Shown here piece after piece: positions 3,404 to 62,414 of a stretch of 64,000 nt of DNA. The position numbers were made by a program, and so were the translations under genes. Under the pieces are notes generated by a model. The model was given only the letters and a program-made list of their open reading frames with translations. It did not search any database and had not been told where the DNA came from. Position 1 is the stretch's first letter, and each line of letters starts with the position of its first letter. This DNA is from Hydrogenophilales bacterium. GTDB lineage: Bacteria; Pseudomonadota; Gammaproteobacteria; Burkholderiales; Thiobacillaceae. The stretch is taken from assembly GCA_016195805.1 (NCBI GenBank), contig JACPYT010000016.1:124001-188000 (forward strand). Reading direction: 5' to 3'.

Positions 3404-6304
3404 TCATCGCCGCGCCTGCAGCGCCGGATGATCGGGCAGCCGCTCGGGCAGGGCCTCGCGAATCTGCTCCGGGGTCATCTGCAGGGCCGAGGTGTTGCTG
3501 AGCGGCGAGAACAGCGGCGCAAACACCTTGAGCCCGATGTGCCGCCCCAGTTCGCGATAACTCTCGAACTGGTTTTCGTCGAAGAACTGGTCGCTCGTCG
3601 ATTCGTGGGGAAAGCTGCGGTGGCAGGCGGCATATTCGCGCACATCGCTTGATTCGTCGCCGCTCTGCGAGGCCTTGATGTAGATCAGCACGCCCGGCTG
3701 CAGCCCATTCGGATAGCGGATGCAACCGACCGCGAAGTGCGATTCGCAGCGTTTGGATTTGCCCTTGGGCGGCCGCAGCGCGGCAAGGTCGATCTCGACG
3801 CTGACCCCGAAATCGGTCCAGCATTTGCGGATGGCGTTGGCCAGGTCCTCAAACTGGTAGTCCGGATCGCAGCCGGCATCCACCGCCACCACGATGTGGC
3901 AGCGCCGGCGCACCAGCTCGTAGATGCCGAGGTTCTCGAAATGGCCGCCGTCCGAAACATTAAGGAAGCGGGAACGGCTGTTCAGCGTTCCGAATACCTC
4001 CTTGATCAGGGCGAGGCCGCCGAAACGCGGGCTGGCCTTGCGCCAGGCGTGGGGGTGGCGCGGATTGCCGCACCAGCGCCCGAGGCGAACGTTGAACACG
4101 CTCAGCAATGCCGACATGACGGCCGACGTGTGATAGCCCATGTTGGGATTGGCCGCCGCCCCCGACGTGGCCACCACATTGCCCAGCTGGATGCCGCCCG
4201 GCGCATTCAGGAAAACAAACTGGTTGGCCCCGTAGTCTTCGGTGAGGCGATAGGCGCCGATGCGGTCGCCGTCCGAATCCCAGAATTCGTAGCCGGTATA
4301 GCGGGGCGTGAAGGTGAAGGATGCGGCTCGCCGCGTCTGCCAGGCCAGGTCCTCGCCGCCGGTCAGATTCATCGCCGCATTGATGATGGGGAAGGGCCGC
4401 TGGTTCTGCAGCACCGACAGCGGCAGGTCGTCCCCGGGGTCGAAGCCGGTGAACGGGTGGGGCTTGCGCACGACCTTGGTCGGCACGGCCTGTCCCACGC
4501 GCGTGGCACCGAGATAGCAGCGGGTCAGGCGGTTGCGGTAGAAGCCGTGCAGCGAGAACAGGTTGATGTCGATCCGCCAGCCCAGCAGACCGAACACCGC
4601 CGCGCAAACACCGCCCACCCACAGCACATCGGTCAGGTCCACCCGCGCCAGATTGAACAGGGACGCATGCAGGATGGGCGCGAACCGGTCTGCCGCACCG
4701 ATCGGCACGCAGGCGTCGCATAGTCCGCCGGGGGTGGCCAGCACCGCATGCAGCACGCTCGCCAGCCCGATCGCCAGGCCGATGATGAACACATAGGGCA
4801 CTACCACGACCACCCTGTTCAACCAGACCTTGCCCCCGCCTGATTGACCTTTGCCACCGGTCAGCGAGCTCTTGCCCAGCAGCACCCCGCCGATACTGCT
4901 GGCCGCCCAGGCCAGGCCGCCGGCCAGGGCGAGCCCCGCCAGCCACTTCACCAGCGGCGCCGCATACAGGGTGACCGCAAACACGCCCAGCCAGATCACC
5001 GCCGCCTCAACGACAAATCCCCCGAGGCGTGCCCACCACTCGCGGTCCTGGTCCGTATACAGCCGCTTCATCATCCCGATGTGCAGAGTCACCACGCCCG
5101 AATAGCTCAGCAACACCAGTGGCGTGCCGAACGTGGTCGCGTAGGCGACGCCGCCCACTTCGGGAAGACTCCCGGCCCCCTTGCGCAGGTAATAGAAAAT
5201 CACCCCGCCTAGCGCGCCCGCCAGCAGCGTCCAGGGAAGCTGCCAGGCGAAACGGACCAGCCCCGCCGCCCACTCGATCAAGTCGTCCATCGCCTCACGC
5301 AGTCGCTTGGGATCACCAAGCGCCGCCCACAGCGCCAGCAGCTTTTTCAGCGCGGTCAGGGCGACTTTGCCTACCCCGCTCTTCAACCAGAAGACCACCA
5401 GCCAGGGCGCCAGATACACCAGCGTCGTCCACTTCACCCAGTCCCACAGCGAATACGCGGCAGCCGCGGTATGCGCCTGCAGCGCCAGTGCAAGCAGCCA
5501 TGCCGAGAGCAGCGAGGGCACCACGATCAGGACGACGATGAACCTCGGCCCGCTCGAATTGAAGCGGTCGACTTTTTGGAACCGCATCAGGCTCAGTGCG
5601 CAGGCGCCCACGGCAAGCAGCAGCGGGCCTATCGCCAGGCCCATCATTACGGGCAGCCCGGTGTCTGCCAGCGGCGTGGCCAGCGCGAACTTCGCCGGAT
5701 CGGCCAGCCAGCGGCCCCAGCCCAGCATCACATAGGGCAGCGTCAGCAGCGCGCAGAAGAACGCCACCAGGATCAGCTGGTTCAGCAGCAGATTGCGCAG
5801 ATACGTGGAAATCGCCGCCAGCGAATCGCCCGAGAACATCCCCAGCCTGGGCGTCAGGTAATTGCTGTAGCGGCGCAGGAAGCGCAGCGAAGGATGTTCC
5901 GGCGGGCAGTCCGAAGCCGGCGTGCCCGCCGCGCACCACGGCCGCGCTTCGCCCGAAAGCTCAAGCTCCACCGTCGCCAGCGCATCCTCCACCGACTGGC
6001 CCGGCCTGCGGCTGCGGAAAATCAGCGTCGACAGCCAGGCCCCGATATAGCCGCCGCCCGACACCGTCGACAGATAGTCGAACGCGCGCAGCAGCCGCAG
6101 CCGCGCCAGCGCCTGGATCACCCCCAGGCAGAACGTCGCGCTGCGTATTCCCCCGCCCGATAAGGCCAGCCCCACCAGCTGCGCCTTGTCGGCGCACGCC
6201 TCCGGGCATTGCTGCGGATCGTTCGCCTGCGGACGCAGCCGCCCGATCTCGTCCCGCAACACACTGGAAAACTCGGCGCTGACCGTATTCGTATTCGAAT
6301 CCAT
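3404..6304 (-). CDS. Large membrane patatin-like phospholipase
   Basis: A 966-residue protein encoded convergently with the RES toxin. The N-terminus has the patatin oxyanion loop (LALSGGGIRSATFC, about 48-59) and the nucleophile elbow TVSGGGYIGAW with the candidate Ser82. The second catalytic element, the Asp of VSDGGHFENLGIYELV, lies only near residue 784. Between them are several strongly hydrophobic stretches (about 170-240, 255-280, 345-375, 395-480, 500-590) that look like membrane helices, so the patatin fold seems split by a membrane insert. It is expected to hydrolyse lipids at the membrane. Its place beside toxin-antitoxin and restriction genes fits a defence role, but that is inference. 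The N-terminal start has no clear alternative. Confidence 0.85.
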   Translation of the reverse strand: MDSNTNTVSAEFSSVLRDEIGRLRPQANDPQQCPEACADKAQLVGLALSGGGIRSATFCLGVIQALARLRLLRAFDYLSTVSGGGYIGAWLSTLIFRSRRPGQSVEDALATVELELSGEARPWCAAGTPASDCPPEHPSLRFLRRYSNYLTPRLGMFSGDSLAAISTYLRNLLLNQLILVAFFCALLTLPYVMLGWGRWLADPAKFALATPLADTGLPVMMGLAIGPLLLAVGACALSLMRFQKVDRFNSSGPRFIVVLIVVPSLLSAWLLALALQAHTAAAAYSLWDWVKWTTLVYLAPWLVVFWLKSGVGKVALTALKKLLALWAALGDPKRLREAMDDLIEWAAGLVRFAWQLPWTLLAGALGGVIFYYLRKGAGSLPEVGGVAYATTFGTPLVLLSYSGVVTLHIGMMKRLYTDQDREWWARLGGFVVEAAVIWLGVFAVTLYAAPLVKWLAGLALAGGLAWAASSIGGVLLGKSSLTGGKGQSGGGKVWLNRVVVVVPYVFIIGLAIGLASVLHAVLATPGGLCDACVPIGAADRFAPILHASLFNLARVDLTDVLWVGGVCAAVFGLLGWRIDINLFSLHGFYRNRLTRCYLGATRVGQAVPTKVVRKPHPFTGFDPGDDLPLSVLQNQRPFPIINAAMNLTGGEDLAWQTRRAASFTFTPRYTGYEFWDSDGDRIGAYRLTEDYGANQFVFLNAPGGIQLGNVVATSGAAANPNMGYHTSAVMSALLSVFNVRLGRWCGNPRHPHAWRKASPRFGGLALIKEVFGTLNSRSRFLNVSDGGHFENLGIYELVRRRCHIVVAVDAGCDPDYQFEDLANAIRKCWTDFGVSVEIDLAALRPPKGKSKRCESHFAVGCIRYPNGLQPGVLIYIKASQSGDESSDVREYAACHRSFPHESTSDQFFDENQFESYRELGRHIGLKVFAPLFSPLSNTSALQMTPEQIREALPERLPDHPALQARR

Positions 6305-6474
6305 CTTTCCCCCTGTTTATTGCAGCGTGGCCAGCTGTCTTTGGTCTTCCTTATATTCATAGAGCAGGTTGGCGATGTCGGCGGTACCCGGGGTGGGTTT
6401 TTACGCGCTCAAAGAGATATACGCCTGCCCGGCTGGCGTGCGAAGATTCGGTTGATAACAAACGAGGGGAAGTC

Positions 6475-9240
6475 TTGGCTCCGCAGCCAGAACAACAAGC
6501 GAGGGGGAATATCGACGGGCTGCTGGAGGCGGCAGGCTGGCACGTCTGCGACGCTGATGCAGCCAACATCCACGCCGCGCGTGGTGTTGCTATCCGCGAG
6601 TTTCCGCTCCCTGGCCATGGTTTTGCTGATTACCTTTTATATGTGGACGGCAAGGCCGCCGGGGTGATCGAAGCCAAGAAAGAAGGCGTTACCCTCACCG
6701 GCGTCGAAACTCAGTCCGACAAATACACCAAGGGCCTGCCCGCCGGCCTGCCGCGCTGGAGCAACCCGCTGCCATTTGCCTACCAGTCCACCGGAGTCGA
6801 AACCCGTTTCACCAACGGCCTCGACCCCGTGCCGCGCTCGCGGTCGGTATTCGCCTTCCACAAGCCTGAACTGCTGGCCGAATGGCTGAACTACGCTCCG
6901 GCCGCGCAGCCGGGGCAGGGCGCCGCAGCAGAAGCCCCAGCCACCTTCCTCGCCCGTCTGCAACACATGCCGCCGCTCAAGGAAGAAGGCCTCTGGCCCG
7001 CGCAAATCACCGCGATCCGCAACCTCGAACAATCCCTGAAGGAAAACCGCCCGCGCGCCCTGATCCAGATGGCCACCGGCTCGGGCAAGACCTTCACCTC
7101 GATTTCCTTCATCTACCGGCTGATCAAGTTCGCCGGCGCGCGGCGCATCCTGTTCCTGGTCGACCGCGGCAACCTCGCCGACCAGACGCTCAAGGAATTT
7201 CAGCAATACGTCTCGCCCTACAACAACTTCAAGTTCAGCGAGGAATACATCGTCCAGCGCCTGCAGGGCAACCAGATCGACACCACCGCCCGCGTTTGCA
7301 TCTGCACCCTCCAGCGCATGTATTCCATGCTCAAGGGCCGCGACCTGCCGGCCGATCTGGAAGACGAATCGGTCGACCAGCTCGGCAAGCTGTTCAAACA
7401 GCCCGAGCCCATCGAATACAACCCCAGCATCCCCATCGAAACCTTCGACATCATCGTCACCGACGAAGCCCATCGCTCCATCTACAACCTGTGGGCGCAG
7501 GTGCTGGAATACTTCGACGCCTCCCTCATCGGCCTCACCGCCACGCCCGGCAAGCAGACCTTCGGCTTCTTCCACCAGAACCTGGTGATGGAATACAACC
7601 ACGAAATGGCCGTGGCCGACGGCGTCAACGTCAACTACGACGTCTACCGCATCAAGACCGCCATCAGCGAGGCGGGCAGCAAGGTCGAAGCCGGCTACTA
7701 CGTCGAAAAGCGCGAGCGCGAAACCCGCAAGACCCGCTGGGAAGAACTCGACGACGACTTCGCCTACGACCCCAACCAGCTCGACCGCGACGTCGTCACC
7801 CCCGACCAGATCCGCACCATCGTGCGCACCTTCCGCGACAAGCTGTTCAGCGAAATCTTCCCCGGTCGCACCGAAGTGCCCAAGACCCTCATCTTCGCCA
7901 AGGACGACAACCACGCCGAAAACATTGTCGAGATCCTGCGTGAGGAATTCGGCAAGGGCAACGACTTCGCCCAGAAGATCACCTACCGCACCACCGGCGC
8001 CACGCCCAAGGAACTCATCTCCGCCTTTCGCAACAGCTACCACCCCCGCGTCGCCGTCACCGTCGACATGATCGCCACCGGCACCGACATCAAGCCGGTG
8101 GAAATCGTCTTCTTCATGCGCGCCGTCAAATCGCGCGGCTTCTTCGAGCAGATGAAAGGCCGCGGCGTGCGCGTCATCAAGCCCGACGACCTCCGCGCCG
8201 TCACCCCAGACGCCAAGGCCAAGGACCACTTCGTCATCATCGACGCCGTCGGCGTGTGCGAGCAGGACAAGACCGATGCCCGCCCCATGGAGAAAAAGCC
8301 CAGCGTCAGCTTCGAGCGCCTGCTGCAAGCCGTCGCCTTCGGCAACACCGAAGACGACGTCATCACCAGCATCGCCGGCCGCCTGGCCCGAATGGAACAC
8401 CGCATCAGCGCCGAAGACGATGCGAAGATTCGAGTAGCAAGCGGCGGCCTAGGCCTAAAAGACCTAGCCCACCAGCTAGTCGAATCCCTGGACCCGGACC
8501 GCAGCACCGTTCGCCCTGAGCCCGTCGAAGGGCAAGCAAACCAAGCCCGCATCAAAGCTGCCAAACCCCTCTGCGACCCCGCCCTGCGCCAACTCATCCT
8601 CGACATCAAGGCCAAAAACGAAATCACCATCGACCACGTCAGCCAGGACCAGGTCATCGAAGCCGGCTTCAGCCAGGCCGCCCTCGACCGTGCCAAAGGC
8701 CTGGTGCAATCCTTCGAGCAATTCATCGCCGACCACAAAGACGAAATCACCGCCCTGCAAATCCTCTACAGCAAACCCTATAAACAGCGCCTTACCTTCG
8801 ACGCTGTGAAAGAACTCGCCGACGCCATCGAAAAGCCGCCCTACCTGTGGAACGAATCCCAGCTCTGGCAGGCCTACGCCGCGCTGGAAGCCAGCAAGGT
8901 CAAAGGCGCCAGCGGCAAACGCATCCTCACCGACCTGGTGTCGCTGGTCCGCTTCGCCATCCACCAGGACAACGAACTAGTGCCGTTCCCTGAACGCGTC
9001 AACGTCAACTTCAAGGCGTGGCTGGCAGGGCAGGAAAGCGCAGGCAAGCAATTCACGGCAGACCAGCGGCGCTGGCTGGAAATGATCCGCGACCACATCG
9101 CCGCCAATCTCGGCATCGAGCCGGACGATTTCGAATACGCGCCATTCGCTCAGGAGGGCGGCTTGGGCAAGGTGTATCAGCTTTTCGGTGATGAGTTGAG
9201 CAGTCTCATTGAGCAATTGAATGAGAGCTTGGCGGCATGA
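6475..9240 (+). CDS. hsdR: Type I restriction enzyme endonuclease/translocase subunit HsdR
   Basis: A 921-residue protein that starts with TTG behind a good ribosome site (GAGGGGA). Residues about 40-75 form the PD-(D/E)xK nuclease centre (GFADYLLYVDG...GVIEAKKEG). The SF2 helicase motor follows, with Walker A ATGSGKT near 200-206 and the DEAH box at about 330-333, then helicase motifs around MIATGTDIKPVE and QMKGRGVRV. The C-terminal third resembles the EcoEI-type HsdR C-domain that binds the methylase core. The subunit cleaves unmodified DNA after ATP-driven translocation. Residues 679-686 (VRPEPVEG) are encoded by a REP-like repeat inserted in frame. The gene overlaps hsdS by ATGA. All catalytic motifs are present. 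Confidence 0.95.
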   Translation: MAPQPEQQARGNIDGLLEAAGWHVCDADAANIHAARGVAIREFPLPGHGFADYLLYVDGKAAGVIEAKKEGVTLTGVETQSDKYTKGLPAGLPRWSNPLPFAYQSTGVETRFTNGLDPVPRSRSVFAFHKPELLAEWLNYAPAAQPGQGAAAEAPATFLARLQHMPPLKEEGLWPAQITAIRNLEQSLKENRPRALIQMATGSGKTFTSISFIYRLIKFAGARRILFLVDRGNLADQTLKEFQQYVSPYNNFKFSEEYIVQRLQGNQIDTTARVCICTLQRMYSMLKGRDLPADLEDESVDQLGKLFKQPEPIEYNPSIPIETFDIIVTDEAHRSIYNLWAQVLEYFDASLIGLTATPGKQTFGFFHQNLVMEYNHEMAVADGVNVNYDVYRIKTAISEAGSKVEAGYYVEKRERETRKTRWEELDDDFAYDPNQLDRDVVTPDQIRTIVRTFRDKLFSEIFPGRTEVPKTLIFAKDDNHAENIVEILREEFGKGNDFAQKITYRTTGATPKELISAFRNSYHPRVAVTVDMIATGTDIKPVEIVFFMRAVKSRGFFEQMKGRGVRVIKPDDLRAVTPDAKAKDHFVIIDAVGVCEQDKTDARPMEKKPSVSFERLLQAVAFGNTEDDVITSIAGRLARMEHRISAEDDAKIRVASGGLGLKDLAHQLVESLDPDRSTVRPEPVEGQANQARIKAAKPLCDPALRQLILDIKAKNEITIDHVSQDQVIEAGFSQAALDRAKGLVQSFEQFIADHKDEITALQILYSKPYKQRLTFDAVKELADAIEKPPYLWNESQLWQAYAALEASKVKGASGKRILTDLVSLVRFAIHQDNELVPFPERVNVNFKAWLAGQESAGKQFTADQRRWLEMIRDHIAANLGIEPDDFEYAPFAQEGGLGKVYQLFGDELSSLIEQLNESLAA
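8510..8533. repeat. REP-like repeat core inside hsdR
   Basis: The 24-base core beginning TTCGCCCTGAGCCCGTCGAA matches the repeat family seen in non-coding DNA at 2600-2674 and around 16634-16860. Here it is read in frame as VRPEPVEG in the linker between the HsdR motor and its C-terminal domain. The flanking codons remain in frame, so the repeat did not break the gene. Confidence 0.65.
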
Positions 9241-10685
9241 AGGCCGAAGAGATGCGCGCGGAATATGCCGTTTTAACTCGGCCTGGAAACGGTGCAGGCA
9301 CAGTCCCTTTCGGTGAAGTCACCGTACCGAAGGTTGATCAAGGTGGTCCGTTGGGTTCAGGTGATTTCACCTATATCGACATCAGTAGCGTCGATAACAA
9401 ACAGAAACGCATCACCGAGTACAAGACCCTTGCTGTCGAAGCAGCGCCAAGCCGCGCCAAACAGCGTTTGAAATTCGGTGATGTGTTGGTGTCAATGACG
9501 CGGCCCAATCTGAATGCAGTTGCAATCGTGCCGGCCGAACTTGATGGGGCAGTGGGTTCAACTGGGTTCCACGTGTTGCGGGCTACCGAAGGGACTGAGC
9601 CGCGTTGGCTGTACTACGCCGTTCAAACCCAGGCGTTTGTTTCTGCAATGTCCGAGCTTGTTCAGGGGGCGCTATATCCAGCCGTTCGCCCCAAAGACAT
9701 TCGCGCTTTTCAAATCCCGCATCCACCCCTCGACCAACAAAAACACATCGTCGCGGAAATCGAAAAACAATTCTCCCGCCTCGACGAAGCCGTCGCCAAC
9801 CTCAAGCGCGTCAAGGCCAACCTCAAGCGCTACAAAGCCGCCGTCCTCAAGGCCGCCGTCGAAGGCCGCCTCGTCGAAACCGAAGCCGAACTCGCCCGCC
9901 GCGAAGGCCGCAGCCATGAGACCGGCGAGCAACTCCTGCAACGCATCCTCGAAACCCGACGAAGCCAGTGGCAAGGCAAGGGAAAATACAAAGAACCCGC
10001 CTCGCCCGACTCCACCGGTCTGCGCGAATTGCCGGAGGGGTGGGTGTGGGCATCCCCTGCGCAAATGTCAGCGGGTGAACCGTATTCACTAGCAATTGGA
10101 CCGTTTGGTAGCAGTCTCAAGGTGAGCGACTACACCACCTCCGGGATGCCCTTGGTGTTTGTGAGGAACATCCGCGCAGCTATGTTCGGTGGACCTGACA
10201 CGATTTATGTTAGCGAGCTGAAAGCAGAAGACTTGCGCGCACATTGGGTCGAAGCGGGTGACCTACTTGTTACCAAAATGGGTGATCCACCCGGTGATGT
10301 TTGTATCTATCCTGCGCACAGACCGCCCGCAGTTATTACAGCGGATTGCGTCAAGCTGCGGCTTGGTAACTTCGTGCCGACGCAGTTTTTCGCGTATGCA
10401 ATCGAATCTGACTTAGTACACAAACAGATACTCGGTATCACAAAGGGTGTTGCTCAGTTAAAGGTCAGCCTTGGTCGGTTTGGTTCAATCGCATTCCCGT
10501 TACCGCCGATCGCTGAACAACACCGCATCGTCGCCGAAGTCGACCGCCGCCTCTCCCTCCTGCGCGAAACCGAGGCCCAAGTGGACGCCAACCTCCAGCG
10601 CGCCGAGCGTCTGAGACAGTCAATTTTGAGCCGAGCTTTCAATTCACGAATGATTTTGCATGATGGATATCCTGAAGCCGCTTGA
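9237..10685 (+). CDS. hsdS: Type I restriction-modification specificity subunit HsdS
   Basis: A 482-residue protein whose ATG overlaps the hsdR stop as ATGA, so translation is coupled. It has two target-recognition domains. The first (about 15-150) ends in IPHPPLDQQKHIVAEIEKQF, the second (about 265-425) ends in PLPPIAEQHRIVAEVDRRL; each is followed by a conserved coiled-coil spacer (LKRVKANLKRYKAAVLKAAVEG and the matching C-terminal helix). HsdS chooses the bipartite DNA target for both methylation and cleavage. The recognition domains show lower GC and mixed codon use compared with the spacers, typical of exchanged domains. The 3' end overlaps the next gene by 26 bases. Confidence 0.95.
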   Translation: MKAEEMRAEYAVLTRPGNGAGTVPFGEVTVPKVDQGGPLGSGDFTYIDISSVDNKQKRITEYKTLAVEAAPSRAKQRLKFGDVLVSMTRPNLNAVAIVPAELDGAVGSTGFHVLRATEGTEPRWLYYAVQTQAFVSAMSELVQGALYPAVRPKDIRAFQIPHPPLDQQKHIVAEIEKQFSRLDEAVANLKRVKANLKRYKAAVLKAAVEGRLVETEAELARREGRSHETGEQLLQRILETRRSQWQGKGKYKEPASPDSTGLRELPEGWVWASPAQMSAGEPYSLAIGPFGSSLKVSDYTTSGMPLVFVRNIRAAMFGGPDTIYVSELKAEDLRAHWVEAGDLLVTKMGDPPGDVCIYPAHRPPAVITADCVKLRLGNFVPTQFFAYAIESDLVHKQILGITKGVAQLKVSLGRFGSIAFPLPPIAEQHRIVAEVDRRLSLLRETEAQVDANLQRAERLRQSILSRAFNSRMILHDGYPEAA

Positions 10686-11277
10686 GGAAGTAACCGAACC
10701 GGATGAACGGTGGGCAAATTTTGGCTACCCCAACCCAGTCGATTTCAGCTTTCGTCCCGTTGCGTTGCCGGAACGGCATGCCGCAATTGTGGCAATCTCC
10801 TTAACACCTAGCGTACCCGAATACATTCGAGAGCATTTCGAAACGGCGAAGAATCTCCTCTTGTATGCGTGGTTCGTATATCGCTTTATCCCCGTGGCCG
10901 AATTGCACGCGTATTCCACGGCGGAGATGGCGTTGAAGGAACGGGCAAGGAAGGAGTCTTTGCGTGCGAAAACCTTGGCGCCATTGCTAAAAATTGCCAT
11001 TGAACGCCGCTGGATTGTCGACGAAGGTTTTTCCAACGTTCGGCGGGAACGCGAGGCGATGGACCAAGAATGGGAATGGCGGCGCCAACTTGGTGTGTCT
11101 TCAACTCCAGAAGAGCTGGATGCACAGCGGTATTGCAAGATGTTGTTTGATTCCATGCCGTACCTTCGCAACGATCTTGCACATGGCAGCAAGACAGTGC
11201 GCCCTGGTGGGCTTGGCACGCTTGCCATTTGTGCCGACCTAATCAATCAGCTGTTCAAGGCGCCGCAGCAGGAGTAG
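10660..11277 (+). CDS. Hypothetical protein with HEPN-like R-x4-H motif
   Basis: A 205-residue protein that overlaps the 3' end of hsdS by 26 bases, so it belongs to the same transcript. I do not recognise a named family over its full length. Near the C-terminus it carries RNDLAH (Arg170 to His175), the R-x4-6-H signature of HEPN ribonucleases, within a helical context (MLFDSMPYLRNDLAHG). The middle is rich in charged helix (ALKERARKESLRAKTLAPLLK). HEPN proteins often act as RNases in toxin-antitoxin and anti-phage systems and as helpers in R-M loci. Base composition is lower in GC than the core genes. The HEPN reading rests on one motif and needs a profile search. Confidence 0.6.
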   Translation: MMDILKPLEEVTEPDERWANFGYPNPVDFSFRPVALPERHAAIVAISLTPSVPEYIREHFETAKNLLLYAWFVYRFIPVAELHAYSTAEMALKERARKESLRAKTLAPLLKIAIERRWIVDEGFSNVRREREAMDQEWEWRRQLGVSSTPEELDAQRYCKMLFDSMPYLRNDLAHGSKTVRPGGLGTLAICADLINQLFKAPQQE

Positions 11278-11297
11278 GTGTACATAAAGAGTAATAA

Positions 11298-11314
11298 TTC
11301 ATCTAATTGATGAA
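11298..11314. promoter_or_regulatory. Inverted repeat in AT-rich leader of the abiE pair
   Basis: The 134-base gap 11278-11411 is strikingly AT-rich for this genome. It holds a perfect palindrome, TTCATC-TAATT-GATGAA. AbiEi-type antitoxins autoregulate by binding inverted repeats in front of their operon, so this is a candidate operator. The promoter itself cannot be fixed by eye. Confidence 0.45.
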
Positions 11315-11411
11315 CTGCTGTCATATTAATATAGTTTTTTTCCCCTAAAAAGTATATTGTGTGTGCCAATGATCTTCTTAAAGATGAATTTCGGCGCCTT
11401 GAGTATGAAAC

Positions 11412-12215
11412 ATGGAACCTCTTAAAGGCTTAGGAAAAGCAGATCGGGAGCGCTTGTCGGCAGTATTACGCGCGACGAAGGGCACGGTTTCGGTTGCGCA
11501 AGCGGCCGAGGTTCTTCGCCTGCCTGCGACACCCACGGCCAAAATGCTGGCGCGATGGGCCAAAGCAGGCTGGTTGTCGCGCGTTCGTCGCGGTCTTTAT
11601 GTGCCGGTGCCGCTGGAGTCCAGGACCTCGGATGTGCCATTGGAAGACGCATGGGTGATTGCCGCGCAGCTTTATGGGCCTTGCTACATTGGCGGCTGGA
11701 GCGCTGCCGAGTATTGGGACCTGACGGAGCAGATTTTCCGCACGGTGGTGGTGCTGACTGTGCAGCGTCCCAGGGATCGGAGCCCGACTATCAAACAAAC
11801 CGATTTTCTGCTGCGTTCGGTGCAGGAGAAGGCCCTGTTTGGGGTTAAGTCGGTGTGGCGGGGGCAGGTGAAAGTCGACGTTTCCGACCCGACTCGGACG
11901 ATGCTGGATATGTTGAATGACCCACAACTGGGCGGGGGGATACGCTCGACGGTGGACATGCTGAAGAATTACCTCAAGTCAGAAAAGAAAGACCTCGCGT
12001 TGCTGCTCGAATACGCAAACCGGCTGGGTAACGGGGCGGTTTTCAAACGGCTTGGTTTTTTGCTGGAAAAATTTTCGCCCGCTGACCTGGACGCAATTTC
12101 ACAGTGCCGTGAACGGCTGACCACTGGCAATGCAAAGCTCGATCCTTCACTGGAAACGGACAAACTGGTGACGCGGTGGCGACTCTGGGTTCCACAACGC
12201 TGGCTGGGGGAGTAG
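11412..12215 (+). CDS. abiEi: AbiEi-family antitoxin / transcriptional regulator
   Basis: A 267-residue protein. The N-terminus (about 10-75) is a winged helix of the AbiEi type (TVSVAQAAEVLRL...ARWAKAGWLSRVRRGLYVPVPL). The central domain (about 80-200), with YGPCYIGGWSAAEYWDLTEQ, matches the AbiEi antitoxin domain. AbiEi counteracts the nucleotidyltransferase AbiEii in type IV toxin-antitoxin systems and represses its own operon. The partner gene starts 4 bases after the stop. The pair sits between hsdS and hsdM, which separates the subunits of the R-M system. The family call is good. Confidence 0.88.
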   Translation: MEPLKGLGKADRERLSAVLRATKGTVSVAQAAEVLRLPATPTAKMLARWAKAGWLSRVRRGLYVPVPLESRTSDVPLEDAWVIAAQLYGPCYIGGWSAAEYWDLTEQIFRTVVVLTVQRPRDRSPTIKQTDFLLRSVQEKALFGVKSVWRGQVKVDVSDPTRTMLDMLNDPQLGGGIRSTVDMLKNYLKSEKKDLALLLEYANRLGNGAVFKRLGFLLEKFSPADLDAISQCRERLTTGNAKLDPSLETDKLVTRWRLWVPQRWLGE

Positions 12216-12219
12216 CGCC

Positions 12220-13650
12220 TTGATCGATCGGCAGGAAGTCATGGATTTTTCGCGCGAGTTTGGGCTCGCGCCGAATGTGATTGAAAAGGACTATGTGCTC
12301 GGCTGGATGCTTGCCGGTATTGCCGCGCATCCCGAGATCGGACCAAGCTGGGTGTTCAAGGGTGGTACGTGCCTGAAGAAATGCTTCTTCGAGACGTACC
12401 GTTTCTCGGAAGACCTCGACTTCACGCTCACCAATCCAGAACATCTTGCAGAGCCGTTTCTTCTGGAGACCTTCAAGCAGATATCCGAATGGATTTATGA
12501 CCAGGCGGGCATTGAGGTGCCAGCCGATAGCATCCGTTTCGAGGTCTATGCGAATCCGCGCGGCAATGCCTCGGCAGAAGGGAGAGTCGGCTATCGCGGC
12601 CCGATGCAGCGGCGTGGGGATGCACCACGTATCAAGCTGGATTTAACCGACGACGAGTTGTTGGTGTTGGAGCCCGCAACAAGAGAAGTCCACCACCCCT
12701 ATTCGGACAGGCCGGCGGATGGCATCCGTGTCCGCTGCTATTCCTTCGAGGAGGTTTTTGCAGAGAAAATTCGTGCCTTGGCGGAACGCGAGAGGCCGCG
12801 GGATTTGTACGATGTGGTCCACCTGTTTCGTCACGACGAACTCAGGCCAGAACGGTTATTGGTGTTCAGTACGCTGGAACAGAAGTGCGCATTCAAGGGC
12901 ATTGATGTGCCGACGATGCAGACCGTTGACAACCAGCCTGCCCGGCTCGAACTGGAAGCGGAGTGGGGGAATATGCTGGCGCATCAACTACCGGTGTTGC
13001 CGGCATTCGAACAGTTCTGGCAGGAGCTTCCGGGCGTTTTCGATTGGTTGCATGGCGTCGCGGAAAAAATCGCCAGGCCATCGCTTCAAATGCATACACC
13101 CGGGGTGGGCGCGGTGGATGAAACGTGGCGACCGCCATCCATGTCGCATGCGTGGCACGCCGCAATCCCTTTTGAGATTATTCGCTTTGCCGCCGCAAAC
13201 CGGTTGTGCGTGGATTTGACCTATCAAGGCACCCGAAGGCTGATCGAGCCATATTCCTTGCGGCGAACCCAGGACGGCAATCTGCTCTTGTACGCCGTGA
13301 AACATGAGACTGGAGAACCGCGATCCTACCGGGTCGACAGGATTCAGGGGGCCGAGGCGACGCAGGTGTCATTCATTCCACGATATCTGATTGAGCTGAC
13401 ACCCAGTGGTGTGATTTCTGTGCCACCTGTGTCCAGCCGCGCTGTAATGGATTTTGCACCTGGGACTAGCCGCCCTCGAACGGCTAGACACTCGCTCACG
13501 CATAACGGGCCAAAGTACGTGTTTGAATGCACATACTGCGGAAAAAAATTTACGCGGCAGTCCCACGATTCCGCATTGAAGCCACACAAAGATAAGAACG
13601 GGTATCCCTGTCCGGGACGTACCGGCTTTCTCGTTGACACCAAATATTGA
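12220..13650 (+). CDS. abiEii: AbiEii-type nucleotidyltransferase toxin with WYL and zinc-finger-like C-terminus
   Basis: A 476-residue protein; TTG is the likely start 4 bases after abiEi (an ATG eight codons in is possible). Residues about 15-270 are an AbiEii/AbiGii nucleotidyltransferase: FKGGT (46-50) and SEDLDFTL with Asp65/Asp67, then the later KLDLTDDELL and EEVFAEKIRALAERERPRDLYDVV motifs. Unusually, residues about 310-390 look like a WYL ligand-sensing domain (IIRFAAANRLCVDLTYQG, IEPYSLRR), and the tail 437-464 carries Cys437, Cys440, His449, His456 and Cys464, suggesting a zinc finger. Ordinary AbiEii ends near 300 residues. The toxin blocks growth after infection in AbiE systems. 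The added domains suggest nucleic-acid sensing; that part is inference. Confidence 0.85.
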   Translation: MIDRQEVMDFSREFGLAPNVIEKDYVLGWMLAGIAAHPEIGPSWVFKGGTCLKKCFFETYRFSEDLDFTLTNPEHLAEPFLLETFKQISEWIYDQAGIEVPADSIRFEVYANPRGNASAEGRVGYRGPMQRRGDAPRIKLDLTDDELLVLEPATREVHHPYSDRPADGIRVRCYSFEEVFAEKIRALAERERPRDLYDVVHLFRHDELRPERLLVFSTLEQKCAFKGIDVPTMQTVDNQPARLELEAEWGNMLAHQLPVLPAFEQFWQELPGVFDWLHGVAEKIARPSLQMHTPGVGAVDETWRPPSMSHAWHAAIPFEIIRFAAANRLCVDLTYQGTRRLIEPYSLRRTQDGNLLLYAVKHETGEPRSYRVDRIQGAEATQVSFIPRYLIELTPSGVISVPPVSSRAVMDFAPGTSRPRTARHSLTHNGPKYVFECTYCGKKFTRQSHDSALKPHKDKNGYPCPGRTGFLVDTKY

Positions 13651-13658
13651 GTAATGCC

Positions 13659-15161
13659 ATGAGCCCATCCAACATCGTCCAGAAACTCTGGAACTACTGC
13701 AACGTCCTGCGCGACGACGGCATGAGCTACGGCGACTACGTCGAGCAGCTCACCTATCTGCTGTTTCTGAAGATGGCCGACGAGCGCAGCCGGCCGCCTT
13801 ACAGCCAGAAGAGCCCGGTGCCAGCCGGCTATGACTGGCCGAGCCTGACGAAGAAGGATGGCGACGAGCTGTTCGACCATTACCGCCATACGCTGGAGGA
13901 ACTGGGCAAGCAAAAAGGCCTGCTCGGCCTGATCTTCAACAAGTCGCAGAACAAGTTCCAGGACCCGGCCAAGCTGCGGCGGCTGATCGTTGACCTGATC
14001 GACAAGGAAACCTGGGTGTCGATGAGCGCCGACGTGAAGGGCGACGCCTACGAGGGCCTGTTGGAGAAGAACGCGCAGGACACCAAGTCCGGCGCGGGCC
14101 AGTATTTCACGCCGCGCCCGTTGATCCAGGCGATTGTCGACGCCATGGCGCCCCGACCGGGCGAGACGATCTCCGACCCGGCCTGCGGCACCGGCGGTTT
14201 TTTGCTGGCGGCGCACGACTATGTGGTGAAGCACTGCCCCAACATGACGTCGGCGGAGAAGAAGAAACTGCGCGGCGAAAGCTTCAAGGGCTGGGAACTG
14301 GTGCAGGCGACGGCGCGGCTGTGCGCGATGAACATGCTGCTGCACGGCATCGGCAGCCAGGAGTTCGAGCCGATTGCGGTGGGCGATTCGCTGGCTGCCG
14401 ACCCCGGCGAGCGCTTCGACGTGATCCTGACCAATCCGCCCTTCGGCAAGAAGAGCAGCACCACCATCGTTGGCGAGGAAGGCAAGGTCAGCAAGGAGCG
14501 CGACACCGTCGAGCGCGACGACTTCTGGGCCACCACCTCGAACAAGCAGCTCAACTTCGTCCAGCACGTGAAGACACTGTTGAAGCAGAACGGCCGCGCC
14601 GCCCTGGTGCTGCCGGACAACGTGCTGTTCGAAGGCGGGGCAGGCGAGACGATCCGCCGCAAGCTCTTGCACGACTGCGACGTCCACACCCTGCTGCGCC
14701 TGCCCACCGGCCTGTTCTACGCCCAGGGCGTGAAGGCGAACGTGCTGTTCTTCGACAAAAAGCCCGCCGCCGAAACCCCGTGGACCAGGAAGCTGTGGAT
14801 CTACGACCTGCGCACCAACATGCACTTCACGCTCAAGACCAACACGCTGAAGCGGGAAGACCTGGAGGAGTTCGTGCGGTGCTACCACCCGGAGAATCGG
14901 CATGATCGCAAGCCGACGTGGTCGGCCGACAACCCAGACGGCCGCTGGCGCGCCTACGACTACGAAGAGCTGGTCAACCGCGACAAGGCCAGTCTGGACA
15001 TCTTCTGGCTGAAGGATGAATCGCTGTCCGACTCCGAAAATCTGCCCGCACCGGAAGTGATCGCGGCGGAGATCGTGGAGGATCTGGAGGCGGCGCTGGA
15101 ACAGTTTCGGGAGATTTTGGCCGATATGGATGGCACCTCAATAGAAGTGCAGGGTGCTTGA
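13659..15161 (+). CDS. hsdM: Type I restriction-modification DNA methyltransferase subunit HsdM
   Basis: An adenine N6-methyltransferase of 500 residues from the ATG; a TTG 12 bases upstream that overlaps the abiEii stop is an alternative start. The N-terminus NIVQKLWNYCNVLRDDGMSY is the helical HsdM N-domain. The SAM-binding motif I DPACGTGGF is at about 173-181, and the catalytic NPPF is at 259-262. Together with HsdS it forms the methylase, and with HsdR the full restriction enzyme. It is the last gene of the locus; the R-S-x-x-x-M order is unusual because hsdM normally comes first or beside hsdS. Codon use and GC here match core genes better than the inserted abiE pair. Confidence 0.95.
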   Translation: MSPSNIVQKLWNYCNVLRDDGMSYGDYVEQLTYLLFLKMADERSRPPYSQKSPVPAGYDWPSLTKKDGDELFDHYRHTLEELGKQKGLLGLIFNKSQNKFQDPAKLRRLIVDLIDKETWVSMSADVKGDAYEGLLEKNAQDTKSGAGQYFTPRPLIQAIVDAMAPRPGETISDPACGTGGFLLAAHDYVVKHCPNMTSAEKKKLRGESFKGWELVQATARLCAMNMLLHGIGSQEFEPIAVGDSLAADPGERFDVILTNPPFGKKSSTTIVGEEGKVSKERDTVERDDFWATTSNKQLNFVQHVKTLLKQNGRAALVLPDNVLFEGGAGETIRRKLLHDCDVHTLLRLPTGLFYAQGVKANVLFFDKKPAAETPWTRKLWIYDLRTNMHFTLKTNTLKREDLEEFVRCYHPENRHDRKPTWSADNPDGRWRAYDYEELVNRDKASLDIFWLKDESLSDSENLPAPEVIAAEIVEDLEAALEQFREILADMDGTSIEVQGA

Positions 15162-15805: not shown

Positions 15806-16543
15806 TTGTCCGATCCCTACGCCAGAATCTTCCTCCTGAGCCACATGCGCGCCTATACCAGTCTGGCGGGGCACATCCTCGGCTCGCATCCGCAGATCAA
15901 CGGCTATTACGAAATGCACCTCAGCTATGAAGACGCGTCCGCGCTGGACCGGCAGCAGGGGGCGTTGCTGCAAGGCGATGGGTTCAAGCCAGACAGCTGC
16001 TACCTTTTCGACAAGCTGCTGCACAACGACTATGTGCTGAAGCCCGATCGACTTGGGCTGGCCGAACTCAAGATACTAGTCGCACTGGCGGAGCCGGCGC
16101 ACACGATCCGCAGCATCGTGCATCTGTTCCGCCAGAAGCCGGATCCAGATCTGTATGCCTCGCCGGTCGAGGCGGCCAGCTACTACGTGGAGCGGGTGCG
16201 GGCGATTGCGGATTTCTGCGGGGCGACCGACTGGCCTTATTTCTATTTCGATGCGGAGCTGTGGCAGCGCGCGCCGGAGCGGCTGCTGCCCCGGCTGACG
16301 GCATGGCTGGAACTGGATTCGCCGTTGAGCGAGCGGTATGAGGTGTTCAGCCAGACGGGGCGGGCGCGCCGGGGGGATACGTCGGAGCGCATGCGCAGCG
16401 GCGGAATCGACAGGGCGCGGAACGACTATGCGCATATTGCGATTCCGGACGAGGTGCTGCGGGCGGCGCAGGCGGCGTATCGGGAATGCCGGGAGTGGAT
16501 TGTTTCCAGGGCGGCGGATTCCGTTTGCCTTGGGGAACGATAA
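15806..16543 (+). CDS. Sulfotransferase family protein
   Basis: A 245-residue protein that starts with TTG. The N-terminus IFLLSHMRAYTSLAGHILGS corresponds to the 5'-phosphosulfate-binding loop of sulfotransferases, here with SHMRAYTSL in place of the usual SGTT form. The middle IRSIVHLFRQKPDPDLY and the region with ASYYVERVRAI fit the 3'-phosphate-binding part. The substrate is unknown. It lies at the right edge of the accessory region, followed by the second copy of the dispersed repeat. Such proteins often modify surface polysaccharides or lipids. Family likely, substrate unknown. Confidence 0.7.
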   Translation: MSDPYARIFLLSHMRAYTSLAGHILGSHPQINGYYEMHLSYEDASALDRQQGALLQGDGFKPDSCYLFDKLLHNDYVLKPDRLGLAELKILVALAEPAHTIRSIVHLFRQKPDPDLYASPVEAASYYVERVRAIADFCGATDWPYFYFDAELWQRAPERLLPRLTAWLELDSPLSERYEVFSQTGRARRGDTSERMRSGGIDRARNDYAHIAIPDEVLRAAQAAYRECREWIVSRAADSVCLGER

Positions 16544-57157: not shown

Positions 57158-58252
57158 ATGCAACGACGCGAATTTCTGTGGACGTCCGTGGCCCTCGCCG
57201 CCGGCGTGATGTGGCCGGCCGGCCGGGCCGAAGCGGCCTTCGAGCCGTCACCCGAGGATGGCTGGCGCACCTTCGATGTCACCCACCGGGTGGAGGTACT
57301 GCAGCCGGACGGGGCGACCCGCGCCTGGCTGCCGTTGCCTTCGGTGGACGAGAAGGACTGGATCCGCACGATGGGCAACCTGTGGCAGGGCAGCAGCGGG
57401 AATGTGCGCCTGCTCCGCGACCAGGAATACGGTGCGCAGATGCTCTACGCCGAATGGGCCGCCGGCGAGAAGCCCGTGCTGGAGGTCACCAGCCGCGTCG
57501 CCACGCGCGACCGCGCCGTCGACCTGAACCGGGCCGGCAAGGCCGCGCCGCTGTCGCACGCCGAGCGGCACCTCAATACCATGGCGACCAAACTGTTGCC
57601 CACCGATGGCATCGTCAGGAAGACCGCGCTCGACATCACCCGTGGCGCCCGATCGGACGAGGCCAAGGCACGGGCCATTTACGAGTGGGTGGTGGACAAC
57701 ACCTTCCGCAACCCGAAGACGCGCGGCTGCGGCCGGGGCGACATCCGCTTCATGCTGGAATCGGGCGACCTTTCCGGCAAGTGCGCCGACCTCAACGCGC
57801 TGTATGTCGGCCTGGCGCGCGCGGTCGGCCTGCCGGCGCGCGACGTCTATGGAATCAGGGTGGCGGATTCGCGTTTCGGCTACAAGAGCCTGGGCAAGAG
57901 CGGCGACATCAGCAAGGCGCAGCACTGCCGCGCCGAAGTGTGGCTGGCCGAACACGGCTGGGTGCCGGTGGACCCGGCCGACGTGCGCAAGGTCGTGCTG
58001 GAGGAACCGCCCGGCGGCCTCACGCTCGCCGATGAAAAGGTGAGCGACGTCCGCAAGCGCCTGTTCGGCGCCTGGGAAATGAACTGGCTGGCCTACAACA
58101 CCGCGCACGACGTGCCGCTGCCGGGCTCGCGCAAGGTCACCGTGCCTTTCCTCATGTATCCGCAGGCCGAAACCGCCGCCGGCCTGCTCGACAGCCTGGA
58201 TCCGGCCACCTTCAGCTACAGGATCACCTCGAAGGAGATCACTGCCTCATGA
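57158..58252 (+). CDS. Exported transglutaminase-like protein within the sel operon
   Basis: A 364-residue protein with a Tat/Sec-type signal ([18 protein letters not shown]). The transglutaminase-like core has Cys209 in [20 protein letters not shown], His256 in AQHCRAEVW and Asp in [10 protein letters not shown], a complete Cys-His-Asp triad. Its stop overlaps the selB start as ATGA. Such proteins can be proteases or amidases acting in the periplasm. Why it is co-transcribed with selA and selB is unknown. Confidence 0.87.
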
Positions 58253-60153
58253 TCGTCGGCACCGCCGGCCACATCGACCATGGCAAGACCACGCTGGTGC
58301 ATGCGCTCACTGGCGTGGACACCGATCGCCTCAAGGAAGAGAAATCGCGCGGCATCTCGATCGAACTGGGCTATGCCTATCAGCCGCTGGAAGACGGCGG
58401 CGTGCTGGGCTTCGTCGACGTGCCCGGCCACGAGCGCTTCATCCACACCATGCTCGCCGGTGCCGCGGGGATCGATTTCGCCCTGCTGGTGGTCGCGGCC
58501 GACGACGGCGTGATGCCGCAGACGCGCGAGCATTTAAGCATCCTGAACCTGCTCGGAATCGAACGCGGGGCGGTGGCGCTGACCAAGATCGACCGCGTCG
58601 AGGCGGCACGCACAGCCGAGGTCGAACGCGACCTGCAGCGCATGCTGGCCGATACCGCGCTGGCGGGCGCACCGGTGTTCCCGGTGTCGGCGGCGGACGG
58701 GCAGGGCGTCGACGCCTTGCGCGCCCATCTGCATGAAGCGGCGCAGGCGATGCCGCAGGCGCGGGGCGAGGGCGGCTTCCGGCTCGTGGTCGACCGCAGC
58801 TTCACCCTGAAAGGCACGGGCACCGTCGTCACCGGCACCGTGTTCGCCGGCCGTGTCGCAGTGGGCGACGAAGCGGTGGTGACGCCGTCCGGCAAGCCGG
58901 TCCGCATTCGCAGCCTGCATGTGATGAACCGGCCGGCGCAGGCGGGACAGGCTGGGCAGCGCTGTGCGCTCAACCTGCACGGCGTCAGCAAGGACGAGGT
59001 CGCGCGCGGCGACTGGATCGTGGCGCCGCGCCTGCACGCGCCGACCGCGCGCTTCGACGTGCGGCTGTCGCTGTCGCCGCAGGCGCCGGCCGCGCTCACG
59101 CACTGGGCGCCGGTTCATCTGCACCTGGGCGCGGCGCACGTCATGGCGCGGGTGGCGCTGCTGGAAGGGGAGCGCCTGGCGCCGGGCGAAGGCGCGCTGG
59201 CGCAACTGGTCGCAGACCGCCCGCTCGGCGCACTCCACGGCGACCGCTTCATCGTGCGCGACGCTGACGCCCGCCACACCCTCGGCGGCGGCATCGTGCT
59301 CGACCCCGAGGCGCCGGCGCGCAAGCGCAAGACGCCGCTGCGGCTGGCGGAACTCGCCGCGCTGGACATTCCCGACACCGCGCAGCGCCTGCGTTGCCTG
59401 CTCGGCCTGCGCGGGCTCGACCTCGACCGGCTGGCCGTGCACTGGAACTGCAGCGATCCGGCTGCGCACCTGCCGGCCGACAGCACGCTGGTGCGCGCCG
59501 GCCATGAAACCTGGGCATTTTCCGCCGCGCACTGGGTGCGCCTGCAGGATGCGCTGCGCGCCGGTCTCGCCGCGTTTCACGAACGTTTTCCCGACGAACT
59601 GGGCCCCGATGCCGCACGCGCCCGGCGCATGTTCCTGCCGACGTTGCCGGCCGCCGCGTTCCTTGCGCTGACCGCCGCATTGCTGGCGGCAGGCACGCTG
59701 CAGCGCAGCGGTTCCTGGCTGCATTTGCCGACGCACAGCATCGCACTCACCCGCGAGGAGGACGCGCTCTATCAGCGCATCCGCCCCTGGCTGACGGAAG
59801 CCGCCTTCGATCCGCCGTGGACACGCGATCTGGCCAGAATGAGCGGCAAGGACGAGGCATCGATGCGGCGCCTGCTGCAGAAGCTGGCGCGTCAGGGCAA
59901 GCTCTATCAGGTCGTGCGCGACCTGTTCTACCTGCCCGAAAGCGTGGCGCAACTGGCCACCCTGGTGCAGGAACTGGAGCACCTTGGAGGCGAGACGCGT
60001 GCTGCCGAATTCCGCGACCGCAGCGGCCTCAGCCGCAAGCGCGCAGTGCAGGTGCTGGAGTTTTTCGATCGGGTGGGCTACACGCGCCGCGTGCGCGAAG
60101 CCCACCGGCTGCGCAATGCGGACATGTTCGGCAGGGCGGAACATGCCGCTTGA
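58249..60153 (+). CDS. selB: Selenocysteine-specific elongation factor SelB
   Basis: A 634-residue GTPase. GHIDHGKT (G1), DVPGHERF (G3) and TKID (G4) are in the first 125 residues. EF-Tu-like domains II and III follow, and the last ~250 residues are winged helices that bind the SECIS (for example [20 protein letters not shown]). SelB carries Sec-tRNA(Sec) to the UGA of fdoG. Its stop lies 3 bases before the tRNA-Sec gene. Confidence 0.96.
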
Positions 60154-60156
60154 ACT

Positions 60157-60252
60157 GGAAGGGAAGCGTGCCTGGTGGTGCGGCCGGACTTCAAATCCGG
60201 TTGGGGGTGTCAGTCGCTCCCGGGTGGGTTCGACTCCCACTTCCTTCCGCCA
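60157..60252 (+). tRNA. selC: tRNA-Sec (UCA)
   Basis: A 96-base gene ending in an encoded CCA. The 8-bp acceptor stem (GGAAGGGA with TTCCTTCC), discriminator G, the anticodon loop CTTCAAA with UCA, the long variable arm and the T-arm (GTGGG-TTCGACT-CCCAC) match bacterial selenocysteine tRNA. It completes the selA-selB-selC set for the upstream selenoprotein gene. Confidence 0.97.
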
Positions 60253-62294: not shown

Positions 62295-62414
62295 GGAAGG
62301 GAAGCGTTCCTGGTGGTGCGGCCGGATTTCAAATCCGGTTGGTGGTGTCAGTCGCTCCCGGGCGGGTTCCACTTCCGCTTCCACTTCCACTTCCACTTCC
62401 ACTTCCTTCCGCCA
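62295..62414 (+). pseudogene. Second, expanded tRNA-Sec copy
   Basis: The first ~90 bases follow the selC gene closely: the same acceptor 5' strand GGAAGGGA, the anticodon loop TTTCAAA with UCA, the long variable arm, and a T-arm that can still pair (GCGGG-TTCCACT-TCCGC, one G-U). Between T-arm and acceptor 3' strand (TTCCTTCCGCCA) 24 extra bases, four TTCCAC units, are inserted. The total is 120 instead of 96 bases. Such a tRNA is unlikely to be processed or aminoacylated normally, so it is called a pseudogene. Confidence 0.8.
62367..62402. repeat. Hexanucleotide tandem repeat (TTCCAC)n
   Basis: Six units in a row: TTCCAC, TTCCGC, then four TTCCAC. The array lies in the 3' part of the tRNA-Sec copy. 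Slippage in the acceptor/T-arm sequence is the simplest source. Confidence 0.9.

Follow-up and report, generated by a model that had tools for sequence, protein, structure and literature searches.

A type I restriction-modification operon with a probably exchangeable hsdS-hsdM slot, occupied by a HEPN-like gene and an AbiE cassette

The window analysed here is a stretch of 64,000 nucleotides from a Hydrogenophilales bacterium (assembly GCA_016195805.1, contig JACPYT010000016.1, positions 124,001 to 188,000). Six co-directional open reading frames (ORFs) of the ORF list at positions 6475-15161 form the gene order hsdR-hsdS-orf3-abiEi-abiEii-hsdM. Their R, M and S products have the motor, methylase and specificity domains expected of an EcoEI-type type I restriction-modification (R-M) system (Pfam and PADLOC; Table 1). 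It is probable that this type of operon features an exchangeable cargo slot between hsdS and hsdM. Here the slot would house a HEPN-like gene and an autonomous AbiE toxin-antitoxin (TA) cassette (type IV) that provides a second line of defence and feeds transcription into hsdM.

A 4-bp ATGA overlap joins hsdR to hsdS, hsdS and orf3 overlap by 26 bp, and 4 bp separate abiEi from abiEii. The hsdM start of relatives aligns with the ATG at 13659, leaving an 8-bp gap after abiEii; with the alternative TTG at 13647 the two genes would overlap by 4 bp. The gene order, the separation of M from S and the junction lengths given in a preliminary description of this DNA are borne out by the ORF coordinates.

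Relatives of HsdM were searched for at three taxonomic levels: the order (399 genomes, 49 matches with E at most 1e-100), the class (369 genomes, 25 matches at 1e-170) and the phylum (398 genomes, 13 matches at 1e-170). These draws overlap and include the source genome. Among the 63 contexts examined, hsdR, hsdS and hsdM lie together on one contig in 44, and the interval between hsdS and hsdM measures at least 596 bp in 43 of these 44 (median 2177 bp). In most of the other 19 contexts the view is cut short where the contig or the fetched stretch ends. The preliminary description had considered that relatives might carry intact hsdRSM genes and the source genome alone an insertion. The relatives have the interval filled as well, with different genes, and a random insertion unique to the source genome is therefore rejected.

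Slot ORFs, some of which may be spurious, were called with our own simple composition score, which uses amino-acid frequencies, and not with gene-finding software. The Pfam and PADLOC tallies cover 121 of 169 slot ORFs, from 55 loci (loci carry L numbers). Left out were the loci chosen for AbiE, L204 and L206 (which repeat L044 and L085; L229 likewise repeats L074), fragments of hsdM or hsdR, and short or doubtful ORFs. For tallying, the unrelated slot proteins were put in one alignment that is meaningless by itself. Matches are found to 87 Pfam families and to 550 PADLOC models, the latter partly redundant. The commonest of the first 25 Pfam families listed are HATPase_c_4 (8), Fic (7), AbiEii and SLFN_AlbA_2 (5 each), followed by Polbeta (4) and by AbiEi_2, DUF3800 and GIY-YIG (3 each); candidate (PDC) models and SoFic lead the PADLOC tally. 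Cargo differs from genome to genome among the HsdM relatives, with DarTG-like genes in L216 and a patatin-like gene in L202 (both assigned by eye from the sequence) and a PIN gene in L162 (Pfam) as examples. Six plasmid relatives, out of 12 records, were looked at. In four of them, from Gemmobacter, Pusillibacter, Rhodococcus and Streptomyces, a DEAD/DEAH helicase gene in the place of hsdR is followed by hsdS, one or two genes and hsdM, the Pusillibacter plasmid having two additional genes 5' of hsdS. In the Methylomonas plasmid neither hsdR nor hsdS is annotated in the 9 kb upstream.

As a separate observation, the last two genes before hsdM in L165 (4446-5684), L169 (7534-8816), L176 (8119-9441), L181 (8348-9680) and L209 (2770-3988) form two shared clusters. 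By eye they code for a small winged helix-turn-helix (wHTH)-like protein and a nucleotidyltransferase (NTase)-like protein, a pair that parallels AbiEi-AbiEii.

The edges of the slot are sharp. Compared with five loci carrying other cargo (L162, L164, L165, L202 and L203), similarity spans hsdR, parts of hsdS, and hsdM. It ends 51-103 bp 5' of the hsdS stop; none is seen in the slot, and it returns, at 84-93% identity, no more than 14 bp from where hsdM starts. GC content is 0.52-0.58 across hsdS to abiEii versus 0.61-0.63 in hsdR and 0.61-0.65 in hsdM. Relics of hsdM, with 77-97% DNA identity to the local intact gene, are found upstream of that gene in 11 distinct loci. Nine begin at or near the hsdM start (L033, L048, L085, L095, L162, L164, L171, L175 and L214) and two lie further into the gene (L041 and L172); some of the relics are short, such as those of L171 (45 bp) and L041 (58 bp). 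L196, a frameshift, and L047, which has no intact copy, were dropped from this count. Relics of the hsdR 3' end lie 5' of hsdS in six distinct loci (L085, L164, L171, L172, L180 and L226). We infer from this pattern an exchange of cargo through recombination where the slot borders on hsdS and hsdM.

The abiE pair was followed in the best 80 of 219 AbiE relatives. The abiEi gene is directly 5' of abiEii in 78 of them, the other two (L034 and L084) being cut by the contig end. Type I genes were identified with the window subunits and those of eight AbiE loci as queries, a choice that can overlook other R-M or defence families. In 22 of the 80 relatives a same-strand type I M or R gene, or a remnant of one, lies at most 100 bp after abiEii. 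Further M or R genes or remnants are found downstream at 100-700 bp in two relatives, at 1177 bp in one and, on the opposite strand, at 4.8 kb in one. Where more than 1500 bases are visible downstream, such a gene is present within 700 bases in 21 of 65 loci; upstream, an M, S or R gene ends within 700 bases in 4 of 55. The linked M genes belong to the hsdM family of the window and to distant families at 25-30% identity, which supports the view that the nesting is not due to chance.

The great diversity of cargo would also be expected if the slot were a recombination hot spot tolerated between two genes, whose cargo hitch-hikes and is functionally untied to R-M. Turnover of R-M genes at one chromosomal site within the genus points the same way: beside the patatin-like flank, the loci L197, L198 and L200 of the same genus have fragments of this system or of another type I system, while no hsd gene was detected there in L201 or in L199, whose contig ends about 2.5 kb on. 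This alternative is somewhat unlikely. It accords poorly with the filling of nearly all slots, with the position of abiE ahead of M or R genes in distant type I families and in other gene orders, and with the cargo-hsdM junctions, none of which is proof of function. At these junctions the last ORF ends at most 20 bp from hsdM in 33 of 62 loci (27 of 56 once the AbiE-chosen loci are set aside), 12 of the 33 being 4-bp overlaps, and cargo and hsdM thus often look co-transcribed.

The preferred reading of an autonomous AbiE cassette is sustained by relatives that stand apart from R-M genes. A tree was built of 81 AbiEii sequences, of which 69, including that of the window, were labelled for linkage by hand from the downstream-gene data. 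No type I M or R gene lies directly downstream in 43 of these 69, and three of the 43 (L060, L070 and L072) have type I genes within 6 kb. Eighteen unlinked relatives have 3 kb of visible flank on either side, and in 17 of these no type I gene was seen within 6 kb. For this reason it is probable that AbiEii needs no R-M system for its restraint, and the idea in the preliminary description that the toxin senses loss of the R-M operon is weakly opposed by these counts. In L047 the hsdM next to a full-length abiEii survives only as remnants. L032 and L048 are less clear cases, the former with an abiEii match that stops at residue 423 and the latter with a further hsdM in two pieces.

These relatives bear on two further explanations. 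AbiEii or orf3 might be kept inactive in the assembled type I enzyme and be released once the enzyme is disabled by a phage inhibitor or by damage, as in passages of PMC3874165 and PMC3710099 that describe PrrC sequestered by the EcoprrI enzyme. The nested position and the short junctions in the window would suit such a guard. It is nevertheless rather improbable, since AbiE relatives occur without detected type I genes (the queries cover some families only) and the arrangement of L047 implies that AbiEi alone should restrain AbiEii. The toxin is likewise often found without its R-M enzyme directly downstream, and around the six orf3-homologue loci that were searched, with queries for some type I families, no hsd gene came to light. 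In the second explanation the abiE pair would be an addiction module that stabilises the R-M operon by post-segregational arrest upon loss of the locus. The Streptococcus agalactiae AbiE system stabilises plasmids, according to a part of PMC3985639, and hsdM is directly 3' of abiEii in the window. The decay of hsdM beside a full-length abiEii in L047 argues against such a role, as does the presence of other type I genes or remnants at the same-genus site (L198 and L200), although abiE was never shown to have been there. We consider this explanation as improbable as the guard.

Control of the cassette was approached through the 150 bp that precede 64 abiEi genes. A box TTCAT-N(4-9)-ATGAA with at most one mismatch occurs 0.70 times per leader compared to 0.08 (sd 0.03) in shuffles, and its spacer has 7 bases in 39 of 45 boxes. 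At least one box is present in 33 of the 64 leaders and at least two in 12. They cluster near positions -112 and -38, and stacked boxes extend as a longer symmetric dyad. The A+T-rich leader with an inverted repeat noted earlier in the window is real, with arms of 12 nt, and the additional dyad at 11298-11314 is common to relatives. The suggested separate control of the abiE pair gains support from this leader of its own with shared dyad boxes. In its 19-base form box 1 has a single exact occurrence in the 2.96-Mb assembly. A sigma-70-like scan performed no better than on shuffles. Regulation of hsdR by AbiEi was rejected, no box with at most two mismatches being found in 6201-6480.

Dyad boxes ahead of abiEi in about half of the leaders suggest a promoter under AbiEi control from which hsdM is probably transcribed, and the 8 bp that separate it from abiEii make read-through of the abiE promoter likely. 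AbiEi would repress its own promoter through the dyad boxes, as published for S. agalactiae AbiEi, where AbiEii toxicity is also described (PMC3985639, PMC7319586), and for a mycobacterial AbiEi relative that autorepresses via inverted repeats (a passage of PMC7319586). Transcription from this promoter would pass abiEii and enter hsdM. In a phage-infected cell the antitoxin might run down, and the NTase toxin would then halt growth, a second-line response that backs up restriction. The role of back-up on failure of restriction, raised in the preliminary description, is thus a possible one.

The AbiEii protein has NTase motifs at residues 48-67 and 183-198, in which G48, G49, D65, D67, K183, R194, D195 and D198 are invariant in 49 sequences and R190 is found in at least 90%. 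These residues agree with motifs I-IV (GG-x15-DhD, the K and R of motif III, and +DxxD) as defined for S. agalactiae AbiEii in a part of PMC3985639. A C-terminal zinc-like CCHC site (C437, C440, H456 and C464) is invariant in the same 49 sequences, and residues 318-379 match the WYL domain (PF13280, 7.6e-08, above the cut-off). Matches to solved structures are short or weak, the best being 6y56_A (2.5e-4, residues 42-74). WYL domains of PafBC bind single-stranded DNA, as stated in a passage of PMC11804915. The WYL domain may gate AbiEii by a nucleic-acid signal; that it senses DNA made by restriction is speculation. A bolder version of the proposal, which we regard as unlikely, has a near-obligatory effector slot in which the TA promoter drives hsdM, loss of the antitoxin during infection frees both toxin and HsdM, and the WYL domain gates the toxin by restriction-made DNA fragments. 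Modification and abortive arrest would then be under one switch.

Several observations weigh against the exchangeable slot with an autonomous, hsdM-feeding cassette. For the slot, hsdS lies 33 bp from hsdM in L192, whose hsdS is in two ORFs, and the Vibrio campbellii plasmid has hsdS and hsdM without an annotated gene between them. No hsdS was found in L172, L185, L211 and L230 despite the presence of hsdR sequence, so some loci are decayed. For the leader, 31 of 64 have no box with at most one mismatch, the excess is smaller when two are allowed (1.36 versus 0.80 boxes), and the 19-base operator has one-mismatch matches at 13 other places in its own genome. For the protein, the WYL triad is LLL in the window AbiEii and in the consensus of the 49 sequences. 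For linkage, type I hsd genes are also near 6 of 28 loci with other AbiEii types (L005, L011, L014, L015, L018 and L028; flanks of about 1.5 kb or less), and the WYL form as a cause of R-M linkage was rejected on this ground. Linkage is moreover clustered on the AbiEii tree, none of 500 label shuffles giving as low a number of changes, and its turnover is therefore not free. The label needs 12 changes, at least 9 of them imposed by branches with good support, and is still more clustered than after shuffling; the link between abiE and R-M is therefore, as read from this tree, one that is gained or lost repeatedly and persists within lineages.

The first cargo gene is orf3. In an alignment with four homologues R170-N171 and H175-G176 are invariant (5/5) and compose the motif RNxxxHG, the Rx4H motif of HEPN proteins. 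The label HEPN-like given to orf3 in the preliminary description thus fits through this motif, not through a profile match: no family was matched in Pfam, PADLOC or NCBIfam and no chain among the solved structures. A search of viral contigs gave no confirmed homologue. The gene was not found in the other hsdS-hsdM slots that were fetched, and its homologues sit elsewhere. The view that orf3 and abiE are parts of a single linked system, as had been suggested, is rejected on these grounds.

Genes embedded in type I loci are already known, and the abiE pair before hsdM is a new form of this arrangement. In Campylobacter jejuni, rlo ORFs lie between hsdR and hsdS and mlo ORFs between hsdS and hsdM (Miller 2005 as cited in PMC5183652). 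The locus in the window is of the mlo type, with same-strand ORFs in the hsdS-hsdM interval. It differs in host group, and the passages through which the C. jejuni loci are cited describe no abiE pair with operators. The RRDM island of enteropathogenic Escherichia coli has DarTG2 between hsdS and hsdR, a site termed a potential recombination hot spot in a part of PMC12255303. There hsdM comes first and control is by RptR, whereas in the window the insert separates hsdS from hsdM and is a TA pair with its own dyad-box leader. EcoprrI/PrrC is alike in having, nested among its type I genes, a growth-arrest gene that serves as second line (a passage of PMC3874165). PrrC is held by the enzyme; for AbiEii the predicted restraint is AbiEi, and R-M genes are often not detected with it. 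TgvAB of Vibrio cholerae VPI-2 likewise sits inside a type I operon as a defence system of two genes, according to a section of PMC11411939. It is, in contrast, a type IV restriction pair, and its authors liken its place to that of RloF, between hsdR and hsdS. HEPN genes embedded in type I loci are mentioned in a passage of PMC3710099. As to the cassette itself, S. agalactiae AbiE shares the order of wHTH antitoxin and pol-beta NTase toxin, the leader inverted repeats and motifs I-IV (PMC3985639, in part); the AbiEii of the window differs by its WYL match, its CCHC site and the hsdM gene that follows. Passages of PMC10924106 describe neither an AbiEii-WYL fusion nor nesting with R-M. Payne 2024, a preprint about embedded genes of immune systems to which PMC12988326 and PMC11411939 refer, may well hold the hsdS-abiE-hsdM arrangement.

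The main additions made here are the slot that is nearly always filled, its sharp edges and the leader with AbiEi-type boxes ahead of hsdM. They suggest that operons of this type serve as a platform on which back-up defences are exchanged. If so, a constant restriction core would be combined with an exchangeable, plug-in second-line effector whose edges can be read from the sequence, and the genes between hsdS and hsdM would be a simple list of candidate defence genes. The locus would then also offer a testable case of a TA repressor that possibly controls a DNA methyltransferase.

Table 1. Features of the type I R-M locus (window coordinates)
Feature	Position	Strand	Description
hsdR	6475..9240	+	TTG start, 921 aa; EcoEI-type restriction/translocase subunit; ResIII 2.5e-36, EcoEI_R_C 1.4e-44, HSDR_N 5.9e-07 (Pfam)
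hsdS	9237..10685	+	482 aa; specificity subunit; Methylase_S 1.6e-13; PADLOC Specificity_I 5.2e-67
orf3	10660..11277	+	205 aa; HEPN-like putative RNase, cargo gene; RN 170-171 and HG 175-176 invariant in 5/5 sequences
Operator box 1	11298..11314	+	Predicted; exact dyad TTCAT-N7-ATGAA
A+T-rich inverted repeat	11328..11358	+	12-nt arms 11328-11339 and 11347-11358; -10-like sequence AGTATATT; between both boxes
Possible operator box 2	11375..11388	+	One mismatch, 4-base spacer; 37 bp 5' of the abiEi start
abiEi	11412..12215	+	267 aa; wHTH antitoxin, predicted autorepressor; AbiEi_4 1.9e-08, AbiEi_1; PDLC02271 3e-116
abiEii	12220..13650	+	TTG start, 476 aa; predicted NTase toxin; PF08843 6.1e-39; PDLC02317 5.9e-193
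hsdM	13647..15161	+	TTG 13647 in the ORF list, likely start ATG 13659; N6-adenine methyltransferase subunit; N6_Mtase, HsdM_N

The locus is flanked upstream by the patatin-like gene (3404-6304, minus strand; Pfam match above the cut-off) and downstream by a sulfotransferase-like gene (15806-16543, plus strand; weak Pfam match below the cut-off). Elsewhere in the window two tRNA-SeC genes are predicted about 2 kb apart on the plus strand, at 60156-60252 and 62296-62389, the first directly 3' of a 634-aa ORF (58249-60153). They are either a duplicated selenocysteine tRNA or include one false call.

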